A stretch of DNA of 52,450 bases from Candidatus Halobonum tyrrellensis G22 (GTDB lineage Archaea; Halobacteriota; Halobacteria; Halobacteriales; Haloferacaceae). Both the position numbers and the translations under genes were made by a program. Below, in pieces: positions 1,668 to 33,176 of this stretch (the stretch's first letter is position 1; each line of letters begins with the position of its first letter). The notes below the pieces were generated by a model. The model ran no database searches. It was given only the letters and a program-made list of their open reading frames with translations, and was not told the DNA's origin. The stretch is from the NCBI RefSeq assembly GCF_000495475.1, contig NZ_ASGZ01000027.1, positions 1 through 52,450 of the forward strand, given 5' to 3'.

Positions 1668-3779
1668 CTACGTCGTCCGTACGTAGCCACCCTGCGGCTC
1701 GTAGATCTCGCCGCGGGTCCGGAGCTTCTCCAGTTCCTGTTCGGCTTTGCCGCCGTCCATCCCGACCTGGTCGGCGCGCTCGATGATCTGGTCGACCGGC
1801 GCGCCGGGTTCGTCGTCGTACTCGTCGGCGATGGTGGTTATCAGTTCCCGGAGGCTCTTGATCCGGTCGCGCTGGCTCTTCGACGTGCCGGTCTCGACCA
1901 CGTCCGCGTCGAACTGGCCCGTCTCGGGGTCGACCCCGATGTCCTGGAGACACGACTGGACGATCTCGATCACCCGTTCGGCGTCCTCCTCCTCGACGTA
2001 GTCGGAGAGCCGCACCCGCGCGCTCGCCTCCGAGAGCCGCACCAGCGCCTCCAGTTTCCGGGCGGTGACCGGGACGGGCGCGTCCTCGTCGGCGCCGCGC
2101 GCGCGCAGGTCGACGTAGAAGTCGCGGATCGCCTGTTTGGCCTCGTCCGTCATCGTGGGGTAGCAGTTGCGTTTGGCGTACGCGATGTACTTCCGGAGGA
2201 GTTCGGGGTCGATCGTCGGCTCCACCTCCTCGGTCACGTCCTCCACCTCGTCGCGGCTGAAGTTCGAGGCCGGTAGCTCCTCCCGCTGAGTGTTGAGTTC
2301 GCCCGCGTAGTTCGTCGTCAGGATGTGGTCGGCGAGTTGGGCGTCGTGGTCGGGGTCGGGCTGGTCGGTGACCGTGAAGATCAGGTCGAACCGCGAGATC
2401 AGCGCGGGTTCGAGGTCGATCTGCTCGCCGATCGGCTCGTACTGGTCGAACCGGCCGTACTTGGGGTTCGCGGCGCCGAGCAGCGAACACCGCGACTTCA
2501 GCGTCGCGTTGATCCCGGCCTTCGACACCGAGATCTGTTGCTGTTCGAGCGCCTCGTGCATCGCCGAGCGGTCCTCCGGGCGCATCTTGTCCAACTCGTC
2601 GACCGCCGCGATCCCCTTGTCCGCGAGCACCAGCGCCCCCGCCTCCAGCGTCCACTGCTGGCCGTCGCCGAAGTCGTCCCGCACCGCCGCCGCGGTCAGC
2701 CCCGCCGACGACGACCCCTTCCCCGAGGTGTACACCGACCGCGGCGCGATGTTTCTGATGTACGAGAGCATCTGCGACTTCCCGGTACCGGGGTCCCCGA
2801 TCAGCAGCATGTGGAGGTCGCCGCGGATCCGCGAGCCGTCGGGGAGGTGTTTGGTCACGCCCGAGAACAACTGGAGGATCATCGCGAGTTTCTCCTGCTC
2901 GTAGCCGTAGATGGACGGCGCGACGGAGCCGACCATCTCCTCGTAGATGCCGTCGTGGTTGGAGAGTTCGATGATCTCCTTTTTGTCCGCCTCGGTGATG
3001 TCCATGTCCTCGAACTCCTCGTCCTCGATGGTCAGCGACACCCCCTCCATGTACGGGTCGAACACGGTGGTCTTCTCTTGGCCCGAGACCACCTGCTCCA
3101 TCTCTAGTCTCCCCACGACGGTCACGTGGTCGCCGGGAGTCACCCGCCCGCAGATGTCGTCTTCGAGGTTCACGTCGATCGACTGGGGCGTCTCGCCGCC
3201 GCGGAGCCCCTCGGGCGACTCCTGTACCCGGAGCTGCTGGGAGTCGATGAACTGCGACTCGTTGTTGTTCACTCGGAACGGTCCCTGTCGCTCACAGCCC
3301 TGACACTCGTGTGGCTCCTGGAACCCCGAGTCGTTCTGCGGGATGTACGTCATCGTCCCGCAGCGCTGACACTCGAACGCCGCCTCGACGATCTTCGGCC
3401 GGACGTCCGTCGCCTTCCGGACGATCCCCTGGACCGCGACCAGCGACCCGATGTGGTCGTCGCTGACGCGGACGGCGCGGATGTCGATCGTGTTCTCCCG
3501 CGGGAGGTTCCGGAGGCGGACGTGCGCCTGCCCCAGCGAGATGTCGACCGGCAGGTCGTAGGTGCGAAGCGCCTCCTCGGCCACCTCCTGCATCTCCCCC
3601 GGCCGGCTGAGGTAGCGCTCCGCCAGATCGGGTTCGAAGTTGTACACGTCGTCGTAGTCGACGTACAGCGAGCGCTTCTCCTTCGGATAGTGCTGGGCGA
3701 GCGTCGCGATGTCGTCGGCGCAGTAGTCGCGGAAGAAGCTCAGGAACTCGTCGAGTTCCCCCCGCTCCGCTTGACTCAT
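1668..3779 (-). CDS. mcm: Replicative DNA helicase MCM
   Basis: MCM forms the hexameric ring that unwinds DNA at the archaeal replication fork, driven by ATP. The 703-residue length is normal for the family. The N-terminal domain carries a four-Cys zinc motif (CQRCG and CQGC, about residues 137-161). The AAA+ module has Walker A (GDPGTGKSQ, about 325-333), Walker B (DELDKM) and an arginine-finger motif (SRFDL). The C-terminus ends in a winged-helix-like segment (EQELEKLRTRGEIYEPQGGYV). The Walker A region, a frequent intein site in haloarchaeal MCMs, is uninterrupted here. A TATA-like box (about 3806-3813) lies 27 bases before the ATG. It heads an operon with at least four small downstream genes. 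Confidence 0.97.
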   Translation of the reverse strand: MSQAERGELDEFLSFFRDYCADDIATLAQHYPKEKRSLYVDYDDVYNFEPDLAERYLSRPGEMQEVAEEALRTYDLPVDISLGQAHVRLRNLPRENTIDIRAVRVSDDHIGSLVAVQGIVRKATDVRPKIVEAAFECQRCGTMTYIPQNDSGFQEPHECQGCERQGPFRVNNNESQFIDSQQLRVQESPEGLRGGETPQSIDVNLEDDICGRVTPGDHVTVVGRLEMEQVVSGQEKTTVFDPYMEGVSLTIEDEEFEDMDITEADKKEIIELSNHDGIYEEMVGSVAPSIYGYEQEKLAMILQLFSGVTKHLPDGSRIRGDLHMLLIGDPGTGKSQMLSYIRNIAPRSVYTSGKGSSSAGLTAAAVRDDFGDGQQWTLEAGALVLADKGIAAVDELDKMRPEDRSAMHEALEQQQISVSKAGINATLKSRCSLLGAANPKYGRFDQYEPIGEQIDLEPALISRFDLIFTVTDQPDPDHDAQLADHILTTNYAGELNTQREELPASNFSRDEVEDVTEEVEPTIDPELLRKYIAYAKRNCYPTMTDEAKQAIRDFYVDLRARGADEDAPVPVTARKLEALVRLSEASARVRLSDYVEEEDAERVIEIVQSCLQDIGVDPETGQFDADVVETGTSKSQRDRIKSLRELITTIADEYDDEPGAPVDQIIERADQVGMDGGKAEQELEKLRTRGEIYEPQGGYVRTT

Positions 3780-3974
3780 TGGTGGAGTGTTGCCGCCCCA
3801 CCGGGTAAGAACTTCGCCCCCGGAGCGGAACTGATCGGACGCGTCGCGCCGCCGGCCGCGGGCGGGTCGACGCTCGCCGCACCCGCTGAGTCACCCCCAC
3901 GCTCGCGGTGCTCACGGCTCACGGCGTTCGCCGTTCGCGGGCGAGACGGTGATCGCGGCGACTCGCGCGAAAAG

Positions 3975-4002
3975 TGGGACCGCCCGGATTCGAACCGCGG
4001 TC
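3975..4002 (-). repeat. Partial duplicate of the 3' end of tRNA-Pro
   Basis: Bases 3975-3997 are identical over 23 positions to 4087-4109, the 3' strand of the acceptor stem plus most of the T arm of tRNA-Pro. After one mismatch the match continues for four more bases. The copy has the same orientation as the tRNA and lies 112 bases downstream of it. It could be the scar of an element that once integrated into the tRNA 3' end, a common target for archaeal integrases, or a tRNA-derived repeat. No integrase is visible. Confidence 0.75.
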
Positions 4003-4044
4003 GTTCCGCTCGCGTTGCTCGCTTCACTCCCTGCTTCGAATCCG
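3985..4044 (-). terminator. Hairpin downstream of tRNA-Pro, followed by a T run
   Basis: Ten-base arms at 3985-3994 and 4035-4044 (built on TTCGAATCC and its complement) can pair around a 40-base loop. On the minus strand, downstream of tRNA-Pro, a run of four T (3970-3973 on the plus strand as A) follows about 11 bases after the duplicated tRNA end. Transcription termination for the tRNA is one possible role. One stem arm is the T-arm sequence of the tRNA copy. Confidence 0.4.
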
Positions 4045-4086
4045 CTCCGGCCGGCGCTACTCGCGATGACGTTCGCAGCGACAGGA

Positions 4087-4159
4087 TGGGACCGCCCGGA
4101 TTCGAACCGGGGTCACGGGCACCCAAGGCCCGAAGTATACCAGGCTAACCCACGGTCCC
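4087..4159 (-). tRNA. tRNA-Pro (anticodon TGG)
   Basis: The minus strand folds as a complete tRNA of 73 bases. The acceptor stem is GGGACCG paired with CGGTCCC, the anticodon stem CGGGC/GCCCG encloses loop CTTGGGT with anticodon TGG, and the T arm CCCGG-TTCGAAT-CCGGG is perfect. The discriminator base is A, and CCA is not encoded. It reads proline CCA codons and probably CCG by wobble. No intron is seen. Confidence 0.95.
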
Positions 4160-12732: not shown

Positions 12733-13668
12733 TCACATCGACCTCGCTTTGATCAGCACGGCTTCCGCATCCGCCGGCCCGGACAACTGCTCGAACTCGT
12801 CGACCAGGACGTACCGGCCGAGGGTCGGTCCCCGGACGCGGTAGTAGCGGCCGACGACGCGGTCGGCCATCTCCTCGCCGACGACGGTGGTGTCGAGCGC
12901 CTCCTGGGCCATCTCCTTGGCCTCGTCGAGCGAGATGTCCGTCAGTTCCGTGGTGGCGTCCTCGTCGAAGATGACCTCGTGGACCGCCTCGCCGTCGTCG
13001 AGCACCGCCTTGATCCGGAGGTCGAACTCGCCGTCGACCTGGCCGTGCTCGCTACACCGACCGTTCTGGAGGACGCGCGTACAGCCCTCCTCGGGACACC
13101 GCTTGATCAGCCCGGAGCCCGACTGGATGTCGACCAGCGCGCCCTCGACCTCGTCGGCGTCGTCGCCGACCTCGACCTCCTCGTCGAGTTCGGTGATGCT
13201 GGTCGTCCGGTTGAGCTTCACCGAGAAGTTGCCCTGGTACTCGTCGGTGACGACGTTCGAGAGGGCGTAGCTCGTCCCCTCGTCGAGTTCGGACAGGTCG
13301 CTCGTCGTGAACGCGACGAACTTCATCGTGCCCGACTCGTCGCCGACCAGACCGACCTGTGCGATCGACTCGTGGCCGGGGTCCCAGAGGTCGACGACCT
13401 TCACCCGGAGGTCGACCCACTGTTCGTCCTCGTCGATCTCGCCGAGGAGCACCTGCTCGTTGCCGCCGGCGCCGCCGCCGAGTTCGTCGCGTTCGAGGCC
13501 CGCCTCGTCGAGGTAGGCGTTGACGACGCTCCGCCGCGCCTCGTCGACCGGAACGCGGTACTCGTCGACGAGCGTCTCGAGTCGCTCCTCCACGTCGTCG
13601 ACCGTCAGGTCGAGGTGGTCTGAAAACTGCTCGCGTATCTCTTCCGCGTGGGTGCGCAAATCTGCCAT
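12733..13668 (-). CDS. rpa3: Replication protein A (single-stranded DNA-binding), Rpa3 type
   Basis: RPA coats single-stranded DNA during replication and repair. At 311 residues this is the size of the haloarchaeal Rpa3 group. An N-terminal helical region (LRTHAEEIREQFSDHLDLTVDDVEER) is followed by two OB-fold segments (about 75-150 and 160-260), with a zinc finger between or within them (CPEEGCTRVLQNGRCSEHG). Its gene forms a tight pair with rpap3. Unlike most genes here it has a leader of about 37 bases: the TATA-like box lies at 13728-13736 and a Shine-Dalgarno-like GGAGG (13679-13683) stands 10 bases before the ATG. The assignment is firm; the paralogue number is inferred from length and partner. 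Confidence 0.93.
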   Translation of the reverse strand: MADLRTHAEEIREQFSDHLDLTVDDVEERLETLVDEYRVPVDEARRSVVNAYLDEAGLERDELGGGAGGNEQVLLGEIDEDEQWVDLRVKVVDLWDPGHESIAQVGLVGDESGTMKFVAFTTSDLSELDEGTSYALSNVVTDEYQGNFSVKLNRTTSITELDEEVEVGDDADEVEGALVDIQSGSGLIKRCPEEGCTRVLQNGRCSEHGQVDGEFDLRIKAVLDDGEAVHEVIFDEDATTELTDISLDEAKEMAQEALDTTVVGEEMADRVVGRYYRVRGPTLGRYVLVDEFEQLSGPADAEAVLIKARSM

Positions 13669-13736: not shown

Positions 13737-13907
13737 CTCCGGTGGCGGGGTGAAAGTGAAACCCGCGCCCCGACGCCGGCTCGACGCCGTATCCGGGGGG
13801 CCGTCGCCGCCCGCGTGCGGTCGTCTCGGGTGGGGCGAGCGAGGGGAGGGCACGCCGGACGCCGGGGAGGCAACGGACCTATGCCGCCCGCGCACCCAGA
13901 CGCGGGT

Positions 13908-14222
13908 ATGACGCTGAGCGACCGGTTCCGCCGCGTCCTCCGCCAGCAGGCGCGCAAGGTCGGCCGGGAGTACGCCCGGAGCAAGGAGGCGTACGAGGAG
14001 GGGCGCGACGCGGGCGAACGCGGCGTCGGCGAGGGCGACCCCGCGGCGTTCGACCTGCCGACCGACGACGAGGGGCGCGCGCGGGTCGTCTGCCGCCGTC
14101 ACGTCGACCGGCGGGCGGTCCTCGTCGACCCCGAGGGCCGCCCCGCCTGTTTCGAGGCGGGCCACCCCGACTGCGAGGGCTGCGCCGAGGACGTCCGCGA
14201 GGGCGCCGTCCAGACCTGGTAG
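13908..14222 (+). CDS. Conserved hypothetical protein with a Cys/His cluster, 104 aa
   Basis: The basic N-terminal helix (LSDRFRRVLRQQARKVGREYARSKEAYEEG) resembles a nucleic-acid- or membrane-associating helix. The C-terminal part carries C and H residues that could bind a metal (VVCRRHVDRRAV and CFEAGHPDCEGCAEDVREG, about residues 62-97). The protein ends VQTW. The ATG at 13908 is preceded by a weak TATA-like CTATG near 13880, consistent with a leaderless transcript. I recognise it as a conserved haloarchaeal small protein but know no function. The following gene is a separate transcription unit. Confidence 0.75.
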   Translation: MTLSDRFRRVLRQQARKVGREYARSKEAYEEGRDAGERGVGEGDPAAFDLPTDDEGRARVVCRRHVDRRAVLVDPEGRPACFEAGHPDCEGCAEDVREGAVQTW

Positions 14223-32777: not shown

Positions 32778-32930
32778 GTAGCCGCGACTACGACGGCGAC
32801 GGTGGCCTCGAAAGCCCCCGCGCGCTCCGCTCCCGCGGCTCGCCGCGCTCCTCGCTTCGTTCGCTCCGCTCACTCCGCTGCGGTGCTCGCGTCGCCGGGG
32901 TTCGCGGAGCGCGCGGCCCCTTTCAGTCCC
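32778..32930 (+). repeat. Structured element, copy A
   Basis: Order on the plus strand: GTAGCCGC (32778-32785), a 14-base block CCTCGAAAGCCCCC (32806-32819), an 11-base arm (32820-32830), a 73-base centre, a perfectly complementary arm (32904-32914) and GGCCCCTTTCAGTCCC (32915-32930). Arm to arm is 95 bases. The 73-base centre matches copy B at 58 of 73 positions without gaps. The arms differ from those of copy B at 7 of 11 positions yet stay fully paired. Confidence 0.85.
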
Positions 32931-33032
32931 ACCCGGAGGGTCGGCGGGTCGAGCGCCGCCGGCCGACACCCCGGCGTGACGCGTTCCGTTCGGGTGTCCG
33001 GACGGCGACGCCCGGTAGGGAGTCGTCGGGGG

Positions 33033-33176
33033 GGGATTGGAAGGGGCCGGGGCGTGGACGAAGCACGGCGACGCAAGCACCGCAGGCGAGGGAGCAGTGC
33101 GACCGAGCCGAGGAGCACAGCGAGTCGCGCGAGTCCACGCCCCGGGGGCTTCCGAGGTGGTCGTCACTGCGGCTAC
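33033..33176 (-). repeat. Structured element, copy B (inverted relative to A)
   Basis: Read on the minus strand it has the same order as copy A: GTAGCCGC (33169-33176), CCTCGGAAGCCCCC (33144-33157), an 11-base arm (33133-33143), a 73-base centre, the complementary arm (33049-33059) and GGCCCCTTCCAATCCC (33033-33048). Arm to arm is again exactly 95 bases. It ends 80 bases before the alpha/beta hydrolase start. Confidence 0.85.

Follow-up and report, generated by a model that had tools for sequence, protein, structure and literature searches.

A short repeat that follows the tRNA-Pro gene in a 52,450-nucleotide stretch of a 3.68-Mb haloarchaeal genome (the whole stretch analyzed, termed here the window) is one member of a set of hairpin units found behind many different tRNA genes. 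These units probably (at roughly 60%) represent a haloarchaea-wide family of short, modular and gene-less hairpin elements that insert directly 3' of tRNA genes. In each unit, a trailer leads into an inverted arm equivalent to the T loop and 3' T-stem strand; then comes a core hairpin, of one of several interchangeable types, and finally the last 20 nt of the same tRNA in direct copy. Most units measure 100 to 150 bp, typically roughly 110 bp, and they contain no genes. tRNA genes are the main docking sites for archaeal mobile DNA. A gene-less repeat that carries the end of the local tRNA in both orientations, forms variable arrays and is found across almost all haloarchaea would represent a new class of repeat. 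Questions raised by it are which enzyme duplicates tRNA ends, by what route the specificity for each tRNA arises, and whether the arrayed tRNA ends serve as decoy attachment sites or, instead, as trailer RNAs. The family may also account for “partial tRNA” annotations and for many of the low-complexity hairpins behind haloarchaeal tRNAs.

The unit behind tRNA-Pro and its tRNA copies

On the minus strand of the window, the order is tRNA-Pro, a 41-nt trailer, the inverted arm, a 40-nt core, the 20-nt direct copy and the sequence CTTTTC (Table 1). An earlier note on this DNA had reported an identical 23-base copy of the tRNA-Pro end, in the same orientation and at a spacing of 112, and this was confirmed (3975-4002 versus 4087-4114). 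The repeat is exact over 23 bases and covers 28 bases with one mismatch, the similarity of the direct copy extending to 4002. Chance alone is far from explaining an exact 23-base match inside 1 kb. The stem arms located by the same note, CGGATTCGAA (3985-3994) and TTCGAATCCG (4035-4044), are exact inverses at those coordinates. Its statement that nothing lies between the tRNA and the copy proved wrong, as the interval is a conserved element, matched at 3984-4045 by the covariance model R1 with 80.9 bits. The core in the window, termed type A, reads GCA-GG-GA-GT-GAA-GC-GA-GC-AAC-GC-GA-GC-GGA-AC-GA-CC-G-CGG. No integrase gene is linked to the unit at the window locus.

Table 1. Features of the tRNA-Pro locus in the window
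Feature	Position	Strand	Basis
tRNA-Pro(TGG), docking gene	4087..4159	minus	ARAGORN; Rfam RF00005, 57.5 bits
T54-N73 of tRNA-Pro, the duplicated part	4087-4106	minus	Sequence
Trailer module, TCCTG...CCGGA, 41 nt, from tRNA end to inverted arm	4046..4086	minus	Unit extraction
Inverted copy of T loop and 3' T-stem strand, GCGGATTCGAA	4035..4045	minus	Match to own tRNA, 10/11
Conserved core type A, 40 nt, hairpin with tandem G.A pairs	3995..4034	minus	Covariation, RNA fold
Direct copy of tRNA-Pro T54-N73, identity 20/20	3975..3994	minus	Sequence comparison
TTTT 3' of direct copy (context CTTTTC), putative archaeal transcription stop	3970..3973	minus	Sequence
MCM helicase gene, downstream, synteny anchor for occupied and empty sites	1668..3779	minus	Pfam PF00493, E 1.6e-90

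Both copies are specific for the tRNA beside which they lie. In 31 matches found by the core pattern alone, agreement between the direct copy and its own tRNA was 17.8 of 20 positions, compared with 12.1 (SD, 0.42) for permuted tRNAs; for the inverted arm (the 11 nt before the core), it was 9.42 of 11, compared with 7.98 (SD, 0.17). Neither value was reached in 5,000 permutations. This test was used instead of the specificity figures for 143 units, which are biased because those units were found via similarity to their own tRNA. In the larger, similarity-selected set, the inverted match stops at about T63 and thus includes the T loop and the 3' T-stem strand but excludes the acceptor stem, while the direct copy spans T54-N73; junctions lie at T54 in nearly all units. 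The inverted arm matches its own tRNA less perfectly than the direct copy does, as expected if it travels with the element. None of the listed units has CCA after the direct copy, and the copies continue from N73 into the trailer. A retrocopy of mature tRNA was rejected because the CCA added after transcription is absent, and the copy was thus made from the tRNA gene or its precursor.

The core hairpin and the distribution of the family

In a set of 41 distinct units, all 62 nt long, 98% of the pairs in the inner helix of the core are standard. For six of the eight pairs of this helix, both partners vary, a result reached in none of 500 shuffles and not reproduced in slid controls; the shuffles leave sequence relatedness in place, a weakness of which the slid controls are free. 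The core also has two tandem steps of G.A pairs; these four pairs hardly vary (conserved in 41, 41, 41 and 40 of 41), the loop usually being GNA. As palindrome correction would remove G.A mispairs, selection on a folded single strand, either RNA or single-stranded DNA, is the better reading of the core. G-U intermediates at one core pair (6/41) hint at RNA without deciding between the two. Folding-energy z-scores were only -0.95 to -1.6, and covariation was taken as the evidence instead. In Rfam 15, only the tRNA itself was matched, tmRNA scoring 21.2 bits against a cutoff of 47, and a known structured RNA family was rejected on this basis.

Core tips vary in length, an example being ACGGCTTCGCCGT in L119, flanked by GGGA and GACC. 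Three further core types, B (CCCTATCAGTCGCGCGC...GAGCACGTCTGATTCCGG), C (GANNNGACGAGCGAAGCGAGTCNNN-type) and D (TCTGAGGACGAGCG...GAAGTCCTCCGGG), are framed by inverted and direct tRNA copies in the same manner as type A. In a repeat termed type E, a hairpin such as GTCACGCTCGCTTCGCTCGCGTGAC is followed by just the last 10 to 15 nt of the own tRNA; it occurs behind tRNAs, sometimes within the same arrays (L032, L049, L159, L169, L171, L172, L191 and L235).

The apical part of the core (a GA-rich hairpin, model positions 17 to 45) also matches window elements away from tRNAs. The earlier note had likened the loop to two elements at 32778-33176, and the likeness stands for this apical part, matched by the family covariance model at 32852-32878, within 32822-32878 (minus strand; E, 4.5e-4) and at 33084-33111 (plus strand; E, 0.6); the tRNA-derived stem has no match there. 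The GA-rich apical hairpin seems to be a wider haloarchaeal building block.

A search of the same genome with the sequence behind tRNA-Pro gave eight further places, seven of which became loci. Six lie behind tRNAs called by ARAGORN (Val-tac, Val-cac, Thr, Arg, Lys and Leu), and the tRNA ahead of the seventh (L005) has an intron, is read as Arg-tct and is not reliably called by ARAGORN. Related or decayed cores also occur behind Lys-ttt, Phe, Ser-gga, Arg-gcg and Val-gac. By this survey, based on loci fetched for 44 Rfam tRNA matches, more than one-quarter of the tRNAs of the genome have at least one unit. The hairpin that the earlier note had proposed to seek next to other tRNAs is thus present behind many of them, each time with copies of the tRNA in question.

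Matches were found in 40 of 60 relatives. A scan of 84,980 genomes with the strict core pattern gave 35 places, of which the named records are all haloarchaeal (Halobaculum, Halobium, Natronococcus, Halorubrum, Halolamina, Halomarina, Halococcus and others) and one is a metagenome bin labeled Euryarchaeota only. In nearly all cases (31 of 35), a tRNA on the same strand lies 43 to 410 nt ahead of the match, and for 30 of these the distance is at most 180 nt. R1 had matches in 116 of 146 Halobacteriales genomes. In a wider draw, 17 of the 19 haloarchaea had a match and the other Halobacteriota, about 101 in number, had none, the split of R1-negative genomes into haloarchaeal and other having been taken from sort order, among the genomes listed. 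In two complete genomes, all 18 fetched R1 loci are at a tRNA. One locus (L235) was assigned via its array of tRNA-Gly ends, as ARAGORN called no tRNA in the fragment. Some well-assembled haloarchaeal genera hold 0 or 1 type A unit (e.g., family f17, genus g44) and others hold at least 10.

The element was absent from plasmid and phage collections searched with blastn. In viral contigs, the strict pattern gave no match and the loose pattern gave one, on a contig that also holds the tRNA-Glu gene itself. L119, a contig from a viral collection, has two unit-bearing regions (12900-13030 and 13744-14010). These comprise a tRNA-Gly end, behind which lie a T1-like trailer and a broken unit, as well as a complete tRNA-Glu bearing one unit plus a second, decayed unit. 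This contig is probably a provirus with host flank.

Occupancy, exchange of modules and arrays

Comparison with related genomes, suggested in the earlier note, yielded both empty and filled sites. In this genome and its relatives, 19 of 30 tRNA-Pro genes have no unit, and the other 11 have units of type A, B or C. A short arrangement fixed next to tRNA-Pro in all relatives, which that note had named as evidence against integration, was rejected given the empty genes and at least three core types. The site between tRNA-Pro and the MCM gene is empty in L193, L204 and L219, contains type B in L211 and contains type A in the window, a comparison across different species.

Variation is also found at the syntenic tRNA-Asp of Halorubrum, where the 27 loci parsed have 0 to 3 units each and combine trailers T1 to T4 with cores A, B and D in many ways; no unit is present in L145 or L147, and only a broken one is left in L131 and L138. 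Trailers and cores of tRNA-Asp are also found at tRNA-Ser(gga), and core B is found at Gly, Val and Ala tRNAs. TTCTG-type trailers, comparable to that of the window unit, lie behind many tRNAs and are swapped between loci in Halorubrum. Most Halorubrum Asp units have AGGGATTTGAA as their inverted arm, which agrees with tRNA-Ser(gga) at 11/11 positions and with tRNA-Asp at only 10/11; this better fit to tRNA-Ser(gga) looks like a trace of transfer between tRNAs.

Perfect tandem arrays of four 111-bp units behind tRNA-Lys (L220) and of three 97-bp units behind tRNA-Met (L082) show recent local amplification. Distal units are decayed more often, as a trend only (14 versus 5; P = 0.06), and polarized growth of arrays is not claimed. 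In L055 and L082, the trailer is repeated too, so that the unit borders are ambiguous and the duplicated segment would be ~43 bp or more.

These patterns bear on two explanations that dispense with a mobile element. The unit could function at the RNA level as a domain of the tRNA 3' trailer, involved in processing, termination or quality control and subject to vertical descent, frequent loss and local duplication. The hairpin would then be selected in the read-through transcript and its arms kept paired by compensatory change, in agreement with the covarying helix, its G-U intermediates and invariant G.A pairs, the constant orientation of units in the sense of the tRNA, and the similarity of the tRNA-Val(cac) trailer in two genera. 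This explanation is rather doubtful, as the majority of tRNAs have no unit, presence at one tRNA differs among related species, nonhomologous cores occupy one and the same place, and arrays hold up to four identical units; moreover, a hairpin does not require an exact direct copy reaching N73. Perfect tandem repeats could also arise locally at tRNA flanks, which are rich in hairpins, by replication slippage, template switching and gene conversion, and both the apical motif away from tRNAs (window positions 32852 and 33084) and the existence of other repeats combining a hairpin with a tRNA end (type E) are compatible with such events. They are nevertheless an improbable source of the family, because alone they cannot place one core at unrelated loci, because correction of the palindrome would erase the invariant mispairs, and because of the nearly uniform T54 junctions.

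Comparison with known systems and proposed movement

SMR-A of Haloquadratum walsbyi is an ~110-bp, gene-less repeat with many copies and enigmatic mobility; it has constant terminal inverted repeats and inserts into IS605-type transposons and PATEs, which appear with it in the same paper, without target duplication (PMC3119063). The units resemble SMR-A in length, lack of genes, many haloarchaeal copies and a sharp target preference involving palindromic sequence. They differ in that their hairpin arms vary with the local tRNA, a 20-nt direct duplication is present, and the target is a tRNA 3' end rather than an IS605-type transposon or PATE. As in elements integrated by tyrosine recombinases, the tRNA 3' end including the T loop is targeted and a partial tRNA copy lies at the far end, whereas the units, unlike those elements, have no genes or integrase, combine one core with many tRNA ends, and bear an inverted T-arm copy and a conserved hairpin (PMC8371274). 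As at an attL/attR scar, the inserted DNA is bordered by direct repeats of the tRNA 3' end, but this intervening DNA is not site specific, as one core is common to many tRNA types. Some casposons adjoin tRNA genes, with a target-site duplication that overlaps the 4 to 7 distal tRNA nucleotides and leaves the tRNA intact (PMC4046053). The hairpin unit likewise combines a target duplication with an intact tRNA, but it duplicates 20 tRNA nucleotides and has no cas1 or polB. In the sequence of the unit itself, casposon-type terminal repeats were not recognized.

In integron attC arrays, which adjoin one fixed site, the units are delimited by sites whose single strands fold. By analogy, the tRNA hairpin arrays could be likened to them in their outer paired box, inner box, variable tip and fixed site; unlike integrons, the units have no cassette genes and the fixed site is a tRNA gene, and no IntI-like gene is known to be linked to them. 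MITEs and REP/PATE hairpins are short, nonautonomous and dispersed, as is this family, whose ends, however, equal the host tRNA instead of being constant and are shared with no known transposase. A CRISPR array combines a constant repeat and cas genes with unrelated spacers of even length; here, the “spacers” are conserved hairpin modules of 50 to 180 nt. The family was filed under none of these, as it departs in a tested defining feature from each of SMR-A, integration scars, integrons, CRISPR and Rfam families. No description of it was found in the open-license literature, and it is apparently undescribed, although an earlier description in subscription papers is possible. Its claim to novelty comes from how its features combine and not from a demonstrated mechanism, and if all short nonautonomous repeats are regarded as one kind, the family would be a variant of that kind.

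For the mobile family favored here, we infer insertion with target duplication and the action of an enzyme in trans. A cassette of trailer, inverted arm and core would insert behind N73 and duplicate T54-N73, leaving the tRNA intact. Such duplication would account for a direct copy equal to the local tRNA, which exchange of ready-made att sites would not leave. The enzyme, possibly a tyrosine recombinase or a Cas1-type integrase, would recognize a T-loop half-site together with the folded single-stranded hairpin. Units would multiply locally through unequal recombination of the 20-bp repeats, spread from tRNA to tRNA and then decay. The inverted arm would move with the element and later be drawn toward pairing; an arm specific for the tRNA after a move to a new one needs an extra step, by selection or template switching. 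Given the repeated trailers of L055 and L082, more than one cyclic permutation of the unit could be the moving form. A more specific proposal, advanced tentatively, is a dedicated haloarchaeal recombination system that builds cassette arrays behind tRNAs via a trans-acting recombinase. This recombinase would read T-loop half-sites on the folded single-stranded hairpin, in an attC-like manner, and each insertion would duplicate the local tRNA end, producing CRISPR-like repeat-spacer arrays for which tRNA genes would be the leaders.

Other DNA was observed at the same segment, separating a unit from its tRNA in L061 and L083. In L061, this DNA abuts TTCAAATCCCTCCACCGGCT at the T54-N73 junction and reads GGATTTGAA-7 nt-TTCAAATCC, an inverted pair of T-arm half-sites. 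In L083 (318-1433), the displaced unit lies beside a tyrosine-recombinase-like gene identified by eye from the sequence. Integrated elements, as read from these two loci, dock at the segment used by the units.

The earlier note had read the duplicated tRNA end as the mark of an integration scar. It does indicate insertion behind the tRNA, but the scar of a single lost large element was rejected, since many different tRNAs are followed by this 40-nt core, in every case with copies of the tRNA concerned. A broader form, in which a plasmid or virus, since lost, left each duplicated end as its attR and the interval as its collapsed remnant, draws on the preference of archaeal tyrosine recombinases for tRNA 3' ends (PMC8371274) and on the inserted DNA at L061 and L083, the latter with the integrase-like gene. 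It is very unlikely, as independent remnants would not have a common covarying core, an inverted arm from the own tRNA and a fixed spacing, and plasmid and phage records do not contain the element.

Direct copies with an extra T-loop base absent from the tRNA (TTCA-N-AATCC) occur behind Thr, Phe, Val and Trp tRNAs in several genera (L072, L091, L101, L108, L115 and L241); the T-loop half-site would be broken in these copies.
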